This document shows, piece by piece, positions 32,074-39,514 of a DNA stretch of 45,332 nt. The notes below the pieces were generated by a model. That model was not told the origin of the DNA, did no database searches, and was given only the letters and a program-made list of their open reading frames with translations. The position numbers and the translations under genes are program-made. Source of the DNA: Candidatus Nomurabacteria bacterium CG1_02_43_90 (GTDB lineage Bacteria; Patescibacteriota; Minisyncoccia; Phycocordibacterales; UBA1550); the NCBI GenBank assembly GCA_001871765.1, contig MNVN01000022.1:1-45332 (forward strand), read 5' to 3'. How positions within the stretch are numbered: position 1 is the stretch's first letter; each line of letters opens with the position of its first letter.

Positions 32074-32562
32074 CTAAAACCCAATCTTTCGCATGAGGCG
32101 GTTAGGGAGGGGTTCTACTTGGTATTCTTCGGGGAGCATGTGGGCGAGCGCTTGCTGTACTTCTTCGAAATGCTCCTCGTCCAAAGGGACCACGATGTGG
32201 GGCATAAGGGGTTTTTTTGAAATGAGAAGAATTTTTGGTGAGAGCGTTTCTTTGTGATCTTCATGTCCGTCGAGAATCCAAAAAGAATCAAGGGAATCCC
32301 AGGGATAAACGGTCTCATTGCTTCTGACCCCTCGTTTTGAAAGTTCACACTCGATTATTTTTGGAGGGTGTTTTGCATAAAAAAGAAGTGAACCAACACC
32401 GAGCAAAAGAACAACGGAGAGGAGCGCATTGCCCACAATAACAAAAGCTACCGCGAGAGATACGGAGATAATGCCGAGTGCCCAAAACCAATCAGCACCG
32501 TGTTCAGTGTGCTCATACTCAGGAGCTGTCCAAGTGATACGATAGTCATAACCTTCAATCAT
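32074..32562 (-). CDS. Two-helix membrane protein with cytoplasmic domain, hypothetical
   Basis: 162 residues from ATG 32562. The frame opens at 32604, but TACAAT at about 32576-32581 overlaps an alternative ATG, so the start MIEGYDYRITWTAPEYEH is preferred, with a leader of a few bases. Two adjacent TM helices (WFWALGIISVSLAVAFVIVG and LLSVVLLLGVGSLLFYA) precede a soluble domain with strands KIIECELSKRGVRS, YPWDSLDSFWIL and MPHIVVPLDEEHFEEVQQAL, which looks PH-like. Similar small proteins are common in CPR. Function unknown. Divergent from ccdA. Confidence 0.72.
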   Translation of the reverse strand: MIEGYDYRITWTAPEYEHTEHGADWFWALGIISVSLAVAFVIVGNALLSVVLLLGVGSLLFYAKHPPKIIECELSKRGVRSNETVYPWDSLDSFWILDGHEDHKETLSPKILLISKKPLMPHIVVPLDEEHFEEVQQALAHMLPEEYQVEPLPNRLMRKIGF

Positions 32563-32633
32563 GATAGATACACACATTGTATCAAGGGAACGCCTCGTGC
32601 GCAATCAGCAAAGATGCGTTACAATGATAGGCA

Positions 32634-33341
32634 ATGAATGACATAACTATTTTTATTGCATTTGGGGCAGGAATTATTTCTTTTTTTGCTCCGTGTGTCG
32701 TGCCGCTTGTTCCGGGGTTCCTTGCATATCTTGGGGGGATTTCTGGGGGCGCACACTTACCCATTAAACAGAGGAGACTTGCGACATTCCATGCAAGCAT
32801 ATTTTTTGTTCTTGGATTCACTACTGTTTTTGCTCTTCTTGGTCTTTTGGTGCATGGTGCACTTGTGGGCGCAGGTCCAGCGCTCCAAGTACCCTTTGCT
32901 CGTGTAGGCGGAGGTATTATGATTTTTTTCGGACTCTATTTGATGGGATTACTAAAAATGTCATTCCTTGATCATCCGCGAAAATTTTCTATTCATACCA
33001 AATTTTCTTCGCGCTCACTTGCAGCATTTGTCTTTGGTGCGGCATTTGCGGCAGGGTGGACGCCTTGCGTTGGTGCTGCCTTGGGTGCAATCTTGGGGCT
33101 TGCGGCGCTCGCGCCGGCAAAATCATTTTTATTACTCGTTGCGTATGCGCTTGGTCTCGGTGTGCCATTTCTTATTATTGGTGCCTTTGCGGGTGAGATT
33201 GAGCGGTATCTGAACCGCGCCTCAGGATGGATGCCGTATGTGAATATTCTTTTTGGAGGCATCCTCATTTTTCTTGGTGCCCTCGCCTTTACACAAAATC
33301 TCGCGGTATGTCGTGAGGTTTTGTGGAGCTTTCCTTTTTAG
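32634..33341 (+). CDS. CcdA/DsbD-type thiol-disulfide transmembrane transporter
   Basis: 235 residues with six predicted TM helices. The two family motifs are FFAPCVVPLVPG (C at about 21) and GWTPCVGAALG (C at about 144), the cysteine pair that passes electrons from cytoplasmic thioredoxin across the membrane. No thioredoxin domain is fused, so this is the CcdA-length form. TACAAT (32620-32625) gives a leader of about two bases. The alternative-oxidase homologue follows 38 bases downstream with its own -10 box. Confidence 0.92.
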   Translation: MNDITIFIAFGAGIISFFAPCVVPLVPGFLAYLGGISGGAHLPIKQRRLATFHASIFFVLGFTTVFALLGLLVHGALVGAGPALQVPFARVGGGIMIFFGLYLMGLLKMSFLDHPRKFSIHTKFSSRSLAAFVFGAAFAAGWTPCVGAALGAILGLAALAPAKSFLLLVAYALGLGVPFLIIGAFAGEIERYLNRASGWMPYVNILFGGILIFLGALAFTQNLAVCREVLWSFPF

Positions 33342-33379
33342 TTTTGAGAGAAAAGTGAGCCTCGTGTTATCATCTAGTC

Positions 33380-34084
33380 ATGGAAACTGAAAAATCAAAC
33401 AAAGAATTTGAATCCCTTATCGAGCAGTTGAACGACGAAGGTCAATTGCAAGAATACAAAAGACCCTTCGATGATTACAAGGTTGGACCCCTCGCGCGTA
33501 TTCTCGGGAATTTTCTTGTGTGGTGTGGAAATACGGTGTATGGAGAAGCCCCTTCGTATTTAAAATTTCGTGCAGTAGAAGTTATTGCACGTGTCCCGTA
33601 TCATTCATGGTCTTCGGCGGCCTTTACGCTCCTGACCATGTTTTATTCTGATGAGAAAAAAGCACTCCAGCTCTCAACTATTACAAAATTTGTACGTCTT
33701 GCAAGTGATAATGAAACAATGCATGTCATTGTTGTCTCGCAACTCGCTGGGGACGAACAAAAGGCAGGGGTGATTCGCTATACCCTCATTCCTATGTTTT
33801 TTGCCTTCTTTTATTTTTGGGCATCATACATTCTCTATCTAGCTAATCCTCGGTGGTCTCTTGAGCTTAATTATCTTTTTGAACAACATGCCTTTGACCA
33901 ATACGCACGTTTCTTGGAGGAAAATAAGGAAGAACTTCTTCAGAAACCAATCAGTAGTGATTTTCTTGCTTGGTATGGAAGGAACCCTAAAAGCCAATAT
34001 GAATTCTTTCGGTCAGTAAGAAACGACGAGCTTGTTCATCGCAATCGGTCCATTCATGAAATTGCGATCAACGAAGGACACTAA
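33380..34084 (+). CDS. Alternative oxidase homologue (diiron membrane quinol oxidase family)
   Basis: 234 residues. The di-iron ligand set of alternative oxidases is in the right order: E67 in VEVIARVP, E112 and H115 in NETMH (AOX has NERMH), E168 in FEQHA (AOX LEEEA), and E217 and H220 in NDELVH (AOX RADEAHH). The hydrophobic stretch TLIPMFFAFFYFWASYILYL matches the membrane-associated helix between the third and fourth ligand groups. AOX oxidises quinol and reduces O2 to water without pumping protons. TATCAT (33368-33373) ends six bases before ATG, so leaderless. No quinone or respiratory genes are visible in the window. Confidence 0.85.
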   Translation: METEKSNKEFESLIEQLNDEGQLQEYKRPFDDYKVGPLARILGNFLVWCGNTVYGEAPSYLKFRAVEVIARVPYHSWSSAAFTLLTMFYSDEKKALQLSTITKFVRLASDNETMHVIVVSQLAGDEQKAGVIRYTLIPMFFAFFYFWASYILYLANPRWSLELNYLFEQHAFDQYARFLEENKEELLQKPISSDFLAWYGRNPKSQYEFFRSVRNDELVHRNRSIHEIAINEGH

Positions 34085-34135: not shown

Positions 34136-34516
34136 TTAAGAATTCATCCTGTAGGTCTTGAGCGTTCGCAAGAGATAAAGACTAGACATCAAAGCAATGA
34201 GATTGAGAAAGGTGATAATAGATGCGGTGACAGGAGTAAAGCCAAGAAGGGTATGGAGGGATGTTGCAATTGAGTCGATATCAAATTCTAGTCCAGAAAT
34301 AATGCTTTGTGCAGTACTGATGAAGTCGAGTTCTGTGGTGCGCACCGAGAGATGCCAGAGTGAAAAGACAAAGCTAATACTGGTAATGATTATTGCTCCC
34401 GTCACTATTTTTTGCATACGATAGAGAAAAATACCCCGCATAATTTTCTCATGAGTTTGCGGGGGAAGTGGTGCGTCGGGGATTTTTTTAAACGATGAGA
34501 AGAGTGTGTTATTCAT
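34136..34516 (-). CDS. Small two-helix membrane protein, putative anti-sigma factor
   Basis: 126 residues. A short cytoplasmic N terminus (PDAPLPPQTHEKIMRGI) precedes a TM helix (VTGAIIITSISFVFSLWHL) and an extracellular segment followed by a second TM helix (TASIITFLNLIALMSSLYLL). The start codon overlaps the real end of the ECF sigma gene by eight bases, a layout typical of sigma/anti-sigma pairs. There is no zinc-binding HxxxCxxC motif, so the function is inferred from position only. Confidence 0.6.
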   Translation of the reverse strand: MNNTLFSSFKKIPDAPLPPQTHEKIMRGIFLYRMQKIVTGAIIITSISFVFSLWHLSVRTTELDFISTAQSIISGLEFDIDSIATSLHTLLGFTPVTASIITFLNLIALMSSLYLLRTLKTYRMNS

Positions 34517-35068
34517 AATTGTGTAAGTGTTTAGATAGAGCTTGTTTTGCTCTGCGGAGGTGTGTTTTAACCGTATTTAACGTGAGACCTAGAATGAGCG
34601 CAGTTTCCTCATAAGAGAACCCCTCTCGGTAATATAAGAGAAGAATTGTTCGATAGTGAAGAGGAACCTGCTCGAGAGCCTTTTCCATATCGTGAGCAAG
34701 TATTTCTTCTTCAATTCTAAATACGCAAGTTCAGGCAGAATTGTTTCACTCCCTTCATTTGCATAAAGAGAAATCTCAATAATATGCCTCTTCTTCCGCA
34801 AAAAGTCATAGGCAGTGTTGGTTGCAATACGATAGACCCAGTTTTTAAAATTATTCTCCGGGGCGATTCTTTTTCTGTTGCGGTAAACCTTGAGAAATGT
34901 TTCTTGGAGAAGGTCTGAAGCATTGTCGTTGTTTCCCGTAATGCGACGTAAATGGTTCCATATTGGCTTTTCGTAGTAATGGAGCATTGTCTCAAATGAA
35001 TCCATATTTCCTGCTATTATTGAAATAAGCAAATCCTTTTCATTCTCGAGGTTTGGTGGTGCTGTCAT
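34509..35068 (-). CDS. ECF-type RNA polymerase sigma factor, interrupted by an apparent one-base deletion
   Basis: The first 120 residues are region 2: FETMLHYYEKPIWNHLRRI, DLLQETFLKVYRNRKR and FKNWVYRIATNTAYDFLRKK. From about 34715 the coding sense moves to another frame: EEILAHDMEKALEQVPLHYR, LLLYYREGFSYEETALILGL and TLNTVKTHLRRAKQALSKHL, which is region 4 with its helix-turn-helix. The span is 560 bases, so one added base gives 561 and an intact 186-residue protein. The loss is near the AATT/AAA at 34713-34720. In the original frame the gene would stop early at 34589 with a nonsense tail. It overlaps the anti-sigma candidate. TATAAT lies at 35077-35082, leader about two bases. Confidence 0.85.
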
Positions 35069-38470: not shown

Positions 38471-39118
38471 TTATTTAATCTCCACCAGTACTTCATTGCG
38501 GTTCATCCATGGTGGCGTCCATGGTGCATTGTATCCAGCGTATGCAGTACTTCCTTGTGTCGCCACTCCATCACGAGCAAGTGCCGAAGCTAATTTTTCT
38601 TGCATCATTTTTACCCGCGCATCCGAGTGATACCACGAGAATTGCAGTACCGCGTATTTCTTGGCTGGAATCATGACGATTTTCACTCTTGGATCATTTG
38701 GTGTCGGCAATGTTTCCAGAGTATAAGAGCGTGGCATGCCAAAAGATATTACTTGCGAATCGCCCTCAGCCGTCGCCACTACAGGAGCGGTCATAGCGAT
38801 ACTTTCTGATATTTTTTCACTTTTGCCACTTTGTGCGACCACTGGTGCGGTCATGGCTATACTTTCTTTTTTTGTATTCCCGCCAAAGATATATCCCGCC
38901 ACAATTCTAAAACCATTACCCATAGATTCTCCATAAGAACCCTTTACGGTAGTCTGCGCCACAATGTGTGCTGGATATTCTCGTATTTCATATCCATTCA
39001 TTTTCTTTACCACGGCATAGTCCGCCTGCTCAACACGAGAGCTGAAAAATCCCCAGAGAGACCAGAGCCCAATAATGACGACAAGAGCGATAAGTATATT
39101 GATCATAATTTTATGCAT
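38471..39118 (-). CDS. SOUL heme-binding family protein with N-terminal membrane anchor
   Basis: 215 residues. A TM helix (residues 5-26) leads to the SOUL domain: YAVVKKMNGYEIREYPAHIV, FRIVAGYIFGGN, IAMTAPVVA, MPRSYTLETLPTPND and AVLQFSWYHSD, all typical. A repeat SESIAMTAPVVA occurs twice about 19 residues apart, an internal duplication of the domain's hallmark segment. SOUL proteins bind heme or other tetrapyrroles. The gene overlaps the tspO end by eight bases and is translated with it; tetrapyrrole handling is suggested for the operon. Confidence 0.9.
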   Translation of the reverse strand: MHKIMINILIALVVIIGLWSLWGFFSSRVEQADYAVVKKMNGYEIREYPAHIVAQTTVKGSYGESMGNGFRIVAGYIFGGNTKKESIAMTAPVVAQSGKSEKISESIAMTAPVVATAEGDSQVISFGMPRSYTLETLPTPNDPRVKIVMIPAKKYAVLQFSWYHSDARVKMMQEKLASALARDGVATQGSTAYAGYNAPWTPPWMNRNEVLVEIK

Positions 39119-39514
39119 TGAGATACGTTATGGTTAATTGTAATACTGTGGCGAATGTTCCCCAGAGGAGGTACGGGATGTTGGCGTAGACGACCCAGCG
39201 GAGTGAAGGTACAGCGTGCCAGACAGCGTAGAGTGCCCAGATGAGCGTTCCGACGACAAATAGGATGTCGAGCGAGGCAAGGAGATTATTTTTGAGACCA
39301 AATTGTATTGGCGTGAAAATGAAATTAAAAAATAGATTGAGGGCAAAAGGCAAAGCACGATCCACGGAATCTGTCTTGTAAATGCTTTGTAAAATACCGT
39401 GCCAAAAGAAACGGCAATAATCGCATACAAAACCGTCCACACCGGCCCAAAGAGCCATGCGGGCGGACTCCAAAATGGTTTTATTAAAGTTGAATACCAG
39501 TTGGATGTGTTCAT
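39111..39514 (-). CDS. tspO: TspO/MBR tryptophan-rich sensory protein, frame broken by an apparent one-base deletion
   Basis: Residues from ATG 39514 read NWYSTLIKPFWSPPAWLFGP and VWTVLYAIIAVSFGTVFYKA, the TspO N terminus. The rest is in another frame: FALNLFFNFIFTPIQFGL, LASLDILFVVGTLIWALYAV and ANIPYLLWGTFATVLQLTIT, including the conserved PYLLWGTFA. The switch is near 39365-39380, around IPWIV/ALPFALN. The span is 404 bases, so one missing base explains it and gives a 134-residue, full-length five-helix TspO. TspO binds porphyrins and related ligands. It is the first gene of the SOUL operon. Confidence 0.85.

Follow-up and report, generated by a model that had tools for sequence, protein, structure and literature searches.

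An alternative oxidase gene in a conserved chromosomal slot of a Yonathbacteria-like CPR genome without detected quinone synthesis

The window analysed here, a stretch of 45,332 nt that forms a whole contig (C15) of its genome, encodes at 33380-34084 a protein whose membership of the alternative oxidase (AOX) family is secure. Enzymes of this family are monotopic and contain a di-iron site but no heme; they pass electrons from quinol to O2, with water as the product, and pump no protons. The gene is of interest for its age, its setting and its changed pocket, and not for the family itself: it has probably been inherited vertically within its order and lost often, and it stands in a cell that apparently cannot make quinone. 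The genome (0.68 Mb, 98.77% complete) carries a single AOX and is Yonathbacteria-like, its relatives being Candidatus Yonathbacteria and other CPR genomes, which agrees with the CPR host proposed by an earlier sequence-only reading of this DNA.

Identification of the AOX gene

The gene is located as follows.

33380..34084, plus strand: AOX (PF01786), 234 aa, identified by Pfam, homologues, ligands, fold models and dN/dS

PF01786 was the sole Pfam family found for the protein (E 2.9e-9, with a score of 37.4 bits where the cut-off is 22.7), and the AOX profile matched 16 of 16 homologues. Copies that are 78% identical occur in two further members of the genus, and public genomes hold 15 homologues; dN/dS was 0.02-0.09 in pairs with estimable dS, pairs that include the window gene itself being saturated at synonymous sites. 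The gene is thus under strong purifying selection, and these sequence comparisons together exclude chance or artefact as the origin of the open reading frame.

Among PDB sequences, phmmer and two alignment profiles gave no AOX match, and fold comparison alone found the family. Two AlphaFold models of the protein (pLDDT 88.7 and 87.0) had Trypanosoma brucei AOX as their only confident Foldseek matches in the PDB (3VV9, 3VVA and 9KUN; probability 0.99-1.00, TM about 0.6), at about 15% sequence identity. The rmsd to T. brucei AOX was high (7.3-9.2 A), so that the predicted match concerns the fold and not the geometry of the di-iron metal site. The second model also matched a phage plastoquinol oxidase in a viral structure library. 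The AOX assignment made by the sequence-only reading is therefore upheld by Pfam, ligands, fold and homologues, and no fold of another di-iron family, the finding named beforehand as contrary evidence, fits better. The same reading had placed a membrane helix between the ligands: the models do contain a hydrophobic helix at residues 131-155, between the second and third ligand helices, but because AOX is a monotopic protein this helix need not cross the membrane.

Di-iron ligands and quinol pocket

The codons of the ligands and of two further positions lie as listed below.

33563..33565, plus strand: codon of K62, which aligns with the quinol-pocket residue Arg118 of T. brucei AOX
33578..33580, plus strand: codon of di-iron ligand E67 (T. 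brucei AOX E123), invariant
33713..33724, plus strand: codons E112-T-M-H115, first ExxH ligand motif, E112 and H115 invariant
33881..33883, plus strand: codon of di-iron ligand E168, invariant
33902..33904, plus strand: codon of Y175, invariant, the counterpart by alignment of the catalytic Tyr220 in T. brucei AOX
34028..34039, plus strand: codons E217-L-V-H220, second ExxH ligand motif, E217 and H220 invariant

All six ligands had been predicted at exactly these positions (E67, E112, H115, E168, E217 and H220), and in the 16 homologues they are invariant in the order E, ExxH, E, ExxH, together with N111, Y175 and D216. Across an alignment of 39 sequences the window ligands align with those of cyanobacterial, proteobacterial, cyanophage and T. 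brucei AOX, with Chelatococcus as the sole exception; the T. brucei fragment in this alignment ends before the last His ligand. An alignment with marine phage PTOX held 23 invariant positions, among them the six ligands, N111, Y175 and D216.

In T. brucei numbering, Y175, N111 and D216 of the window protein correspond to the catalytic Tyr220 and the second-sphere residues Asn161 (the Asn before the first ExxH) and Asp265 (the Asp before the last Glu), and the two proteins share all three. The quinol pocket differs: Arg118, Leu122 and Thr219, which are typical of characterised AOX without being strictly family-defining, are replaced by K62, V66 and Q174, and H206 is replaced by Leu. Nearly all of the CPR clade shows such changes (R118 to K; L122 to V or I; T219 to Q, with S in two; H206 to L, F or Y). 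The K62 position is Lys in every one of the 22 main-clade CPR sequences, and G116 has Lys there too; the other families have Arg, with one exception. R118, L122 and T219 mark the quinol pocket in characterised AOX (PMC7904559), and Tyr220 of the T. brucei enzyme has a catalytic role (PMC9243770).

Distribution and evolutionary history

AOX is sporadic within the class, being found in three of 16 genus genomes, nine of 384 genomes sampled from the class and four of 380 sampled from the phylum. Two of the four phylum carriers, G443 and G473, have a distant PTOX-like AOX that groups with cyanobacterial and cyanophage proteins. These two genes (L075 in G443, L074 in G473) belong to a different CPR family and were probably acquired separately.

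In L063 and in G390, the latter from another family of the order, AOX occupies the same chromosomal slot as in the window, with the shared order Mur ligase, ruvA, rpsT, DUF5673 protein, AOX, ruvX, tRNA-binding protein and pilM. At this slot the AOX proteins are 58-65% identical to that of the window, compared with 24-60% for the neighbours. The slot is thus conserved in three lineages, and AOX is better conserved there than nearly all of its neighbours, as vertical inheritance predicts; vertical inheritance with repeated loss is therefore the probable history. The remaining AOX genomes carry the gene at other chromosomal places, which indicates transfer or rearrangement within CPR as well.

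Phylogenetic analysis placed CPR AOX, including G116, in one group (support 100/99) on its own long stem of 3.4 changes per site. This group fell on the same side as the cyanobacterial and phage proteins (90/90), apart from proteobacterial and mitochondrial AOX, although with branches of this length the way they join is uncertain. Cyanobacterial AOX and cyanophage PTOX, which are plastoquinol terminal oxidases, were also the best non-CPR sequence matches (24-28% identity, E down to 7e-10); they differ from the CPR proteins in the pocket, where CPR AOX has Lys for Arg and mostly Leu or Phe for Tyr at the H206 position. A phylogeny with AOX and PTOX had been suggested as a way to find a donor lineage, but the tree and the slot give a recent arrival no support, and the gene looks old and vertically inherited. 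A search for CPR-type AOX in viral contigs found none.

Genomic neighbourhood and promoter

Upstream of AOX, the window contains the following features.

32074..32604, minus strand: DUF5673-like membrane protein, the conserved upstream neighbour of the AOX slot, in the same place in G005, L063 and G390
32634..33341, plus strand: CcdA/DsbD-type thiol electron transporter (PF02683, E 1.7e-15), a possible, unproven AOX partner
33344..33373, plus strand: promoter-like TTGAGA-18-TATCAT, its extended -10 ending 6 nt before the AOX ATG

The extended -10 (TGn-TATCAT) ends 6 nt upstream of the AOX ATG. Twelve of 16 AOX homologues have a -10-like element 4-14 nt before the start; other offsets give 2-6, and none of 2000 shuffles reached as high a count. 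AOX therefore probably has its own leaderless promoter, as judged from these sequence patterns. A -10-like hexamer also lies 4-14 nt upstream at 13 of 20 other plus-strand starts checked in the window (1-45332). This suggests that leaderless transcription is common in the lineage.

The DoxX (26611) and CcdA (32634) genes pointed out by the sequence-only reading do exist (PF07681 and PF02683/DsbD_TM), but the redox link to AOX drawn from them is weak. Given the promoter-like site, the 38-nt gap between CcdA and AOX is not to be read as an operon. Among the three genus genomes with a readable region, CcdA precedes AOX in two, the window genome and G005; its place is taken by an ABC ATPase in G006 and by nothing in L063 and G390. 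We accordingly rejected a functional CcdA-AOX operon, the adjacency being confined to the genus level. DoxX was likewise rejected as a partner, since it lies 6 kb away in the window and only G116 has DoxX in its AOX cluster.

On the other side of the gene, an ECF-type sigma factor and a partner gene adjoin AOX convergently in the window (34136-35068), and in G340 they lie upstream on the same strand (L163:8175-9634). Farther along, a SOUL heme-binding protein stands beside a TspO/MBR protein (38471-39514), both families being tetrapyrrole-linked.

Quinone synthesis and respiratory genes

Profile searches of the AOX genome found no UbiA, COX1 or cytochrome bd, and thus no second O2 reductase from either family searched. 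With E. coli queries in tblastn, MenB-F, UbiC, UbiB, Ndh, SdhABC, GlpD and PyrD were not found, NuoE, F, G and I had no match, and UbiE and UbiG gave weak methyltransferase matches only. As controls, E. coli GyrA matched and an E. coli Mfd fragment did not, so the absences from tblastn are weaker than those from profile searches. Within these searches, the supposition that quinone synthesis is missing holds (no UbiA by profile; no MenB-F or UbiC by tblastn), and the NADH dehydrogenase search that the sequence-only reading had called for ended without a match for Ndh, NuoE, F, G or I.

The further supposition that respiratory complexes are lacking stood in part. The window genome has neither COX1 nor cytochrome bd, but seven of the 16 genus genomes encode a CyoB-sized COX1 (bo3-type quinol oxidase), and the window genome itself has a hydrogenase-4/complex-I-like membrane module in which NuoH-, HyfE-, HyfF- and NuoCD-like genes stand in a row (L016, C12:13474-18067). 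This module, cut by the contig end, is shared only with G390 among 26 genomes tested, and by eye its large subunit apparently lacks the Ni-binding cysteine motifs. "No respiratory chain" is therefore too simple a description of the lineage. In G008 a cyoABCDE operon is present (L167:7878-12618, contig C2), its CyoB and CyoA passing the NCBIfam cut-offs. The only UbiA found in G001, G003 and G008 adjoins the COX1 gene, as CyoE does, so these genomes too appear to lack a quinone prenyltransferase. AOX and bo3 occur together in none of the 16 genus genomes (three with AOX, seven with bo3), an outcome that chance alone would give in about 15% of cases; mutual exclusion is therefore suggestive only.

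Candidate electron donors

Adjacency to AOX points to two candidate donors. In G341 the gene immediately before AOX encodes a GlcD/YdiJ-type FAD oxidase, and a 47% identical copy is found on contig C20 of the AOX genome. G443 has VKOR and AOX in divergent arrangement, and the G116 cluster reads AOX, a 240-aa protein, transporter, ATP-cone, VKOR, DoxX. Co-occurrence was rejected as evidence: VKOR or DsbB is present in 12 of 13 AOX genomes, but VKOR is also present in 11 of 13 genus members without AOX, and the GlcD-type oxidase is widespread in general (30 of 40 genomes). Since both are about as common without AOX, only adjacency counts.

VKOR was not found in the assembly of the AOX genome. 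At 13 VKOR loci within the genus, VKOR has a DsbA-like gene beside it (for example L136:834-1490). The DsbA-like gene of the AOX genome (L008:19-669; 70% identical) stops 18 nt short of the border of contig C4, and a VKOR gene next to it may therefore be hidden in a gap of the assembly. NDH-2 was rejected as a donor, the Pyr_redox_2 matches being a thioredoxin-reductase-sized protein and an HI0933-like flavoprotein, and E. coli Ndh having no match.

Proposed role and rival explanations

The best mechanism, to which we give a probability of about 0.6, is that AOX acts as a non-pumping quinol:O2 sink fed by scavenged quinone. Because the cell apparently lacks quinone synthesis, quinone would be taken up from neighbouring or host cells; electrons would enter it from the GlcD-type FAD oxidase (C20) or from a DsbA-VKOR disulfide pathway; and AOX would oxidise the quinol and reduce O2 to water. 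One gene could in this way drain electrons and remove O2, holding the pool of scavenged quinone in its oxidised state. Several pocket positions that differ from characterised AOX, the modest structural match (TM about 0.6 at high rmsd), the failure to find VKOR in this assembly and the non-specific co-occurrence of the donors count against such a sink. A fuller account is put forward tentatively: AOX would be an O2 reductase already present in the ancestor of this CPR order and passed on vertically, with a remodelled pocket, and would end a minimal chain that runs from a flavin dehydrogenase or DsbA-VKOR through scavenged quinone and AOX to O2, in cells without quinone synthesis.

A different possibility is that the AOX fold and di-iron site were kept while the source of electrons changed, for example to a flavoprotein, to a thiol system of the membrane or to some small hydrophobic compound other than a classical quinol. 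The missing quinone synthesis, the alteration of R118, T219, H206 and L122 in nearly all of the CPR clade with Lys fixed, and the long stem would all fit a changed reductant. Yet the catalytic Y175, N111 and D216 are invariant and the exchange of Arg for Lys is conservative; moreover, siblings without quinone synthesis carry a bo3 ubiquinol oxidase, which makes borrowed quinone plausible. We consider a changed reductant rather unlikely. An energy-conserving chain, in which the hydrogenase-4/complex-I-like module would pump ions and reduce quinone for AOX to reoxidise, draws on the row of NuoH-, HyfE-, HyfF- and NuoCD-like genes; it is improbable, given that only two of 13 AOX genomes have the module (G000, which is the window genome, and G390), that its large subunit appears to lack Ni-binding motifs and that the NuoE, F, G and I queries had no match.

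COQ7 has a similar ligand pattern, and a COQ7-like di-iron monooxygenase might modify scavenged quinones and not reduce O2 to water; the COQ7 profile (PF03232), however, did not match the window protein and matched one of 16 homologues weakly (E 4e-4), compared with 16 of 16 for AOX, the fold matches only AOX, and no COQ7 chain was among the fold matches listed for either model, all of which makes such an activity very unlikely. Contamination or a decaying gene might be suspected from the presence of AOX in only three of 16 genus members, but a slot conserved in three lineages, dN/dS below 0.1 and a conserved promoter-like element leave it almost no weight.

Comparison with known CPR oxygen reductases

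The sink proposed here resembles the cytochrome bo3 of CPR bacteria (PMC6031116, PMC8407418, PMC5220378), also a quinol:O2 oxidoreductase in genomes without quinone synthesis with a proposed function in O2 scavenging, insofar as the window protein has the AOX activity predicted from its sequence. Quinone scavenging has been proposed for a Saccharibacteria genome with bo3 (PMC6031116), the bo3 of Parcubacteria has been interpreted as a scavenger of O2 (PMC5220378), and CPR bacteria that have bo3 but no quinone genes have been described (PMC8407418). Whereas bo3 is multi-subunit, heme-dependent and proton-pumping, AOX is a single heme-free, non-pumping subunit, and a single gene with neither heme nor pumping suits reduced genomes. 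CPR bo3 has been reported as acquired from other phyla, whereas the window AOX appears vertically inherited and older in the lineage than those operons.

Patescibacteria have been described as ancestrally without electron transport or O2 reductases (PMC7507113), the families searched being heme-copper and bd only; the term "alternative oxidase" does not occur in the text of that paper. AOX in the same slot across families of one order is an O2 reductase outside that survey. In the library searched, which takes in few subscription journals and preprints, AOX was not evidently reported from CPR, Patescibacteria or Parcubacteria. Some supposedly non-respiring CPR bacteria may thus keep a simple oxygen-consuming electron sink, and if an ancestral AOX with a minimal chain is borne out, CPR bacteria would have one more class of oxygen reductase in addition to the heme-copper and bd oxidases. 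Whether cells borrow quinone, and whether O2 is its oxidant, becomes a testable question.

Several genus members also encode a second COX1-family protein of about 770 aa (L124:1399-3696; L121-L126), which has no NCBIfam match and resembles quinol nitric oxide reductase.
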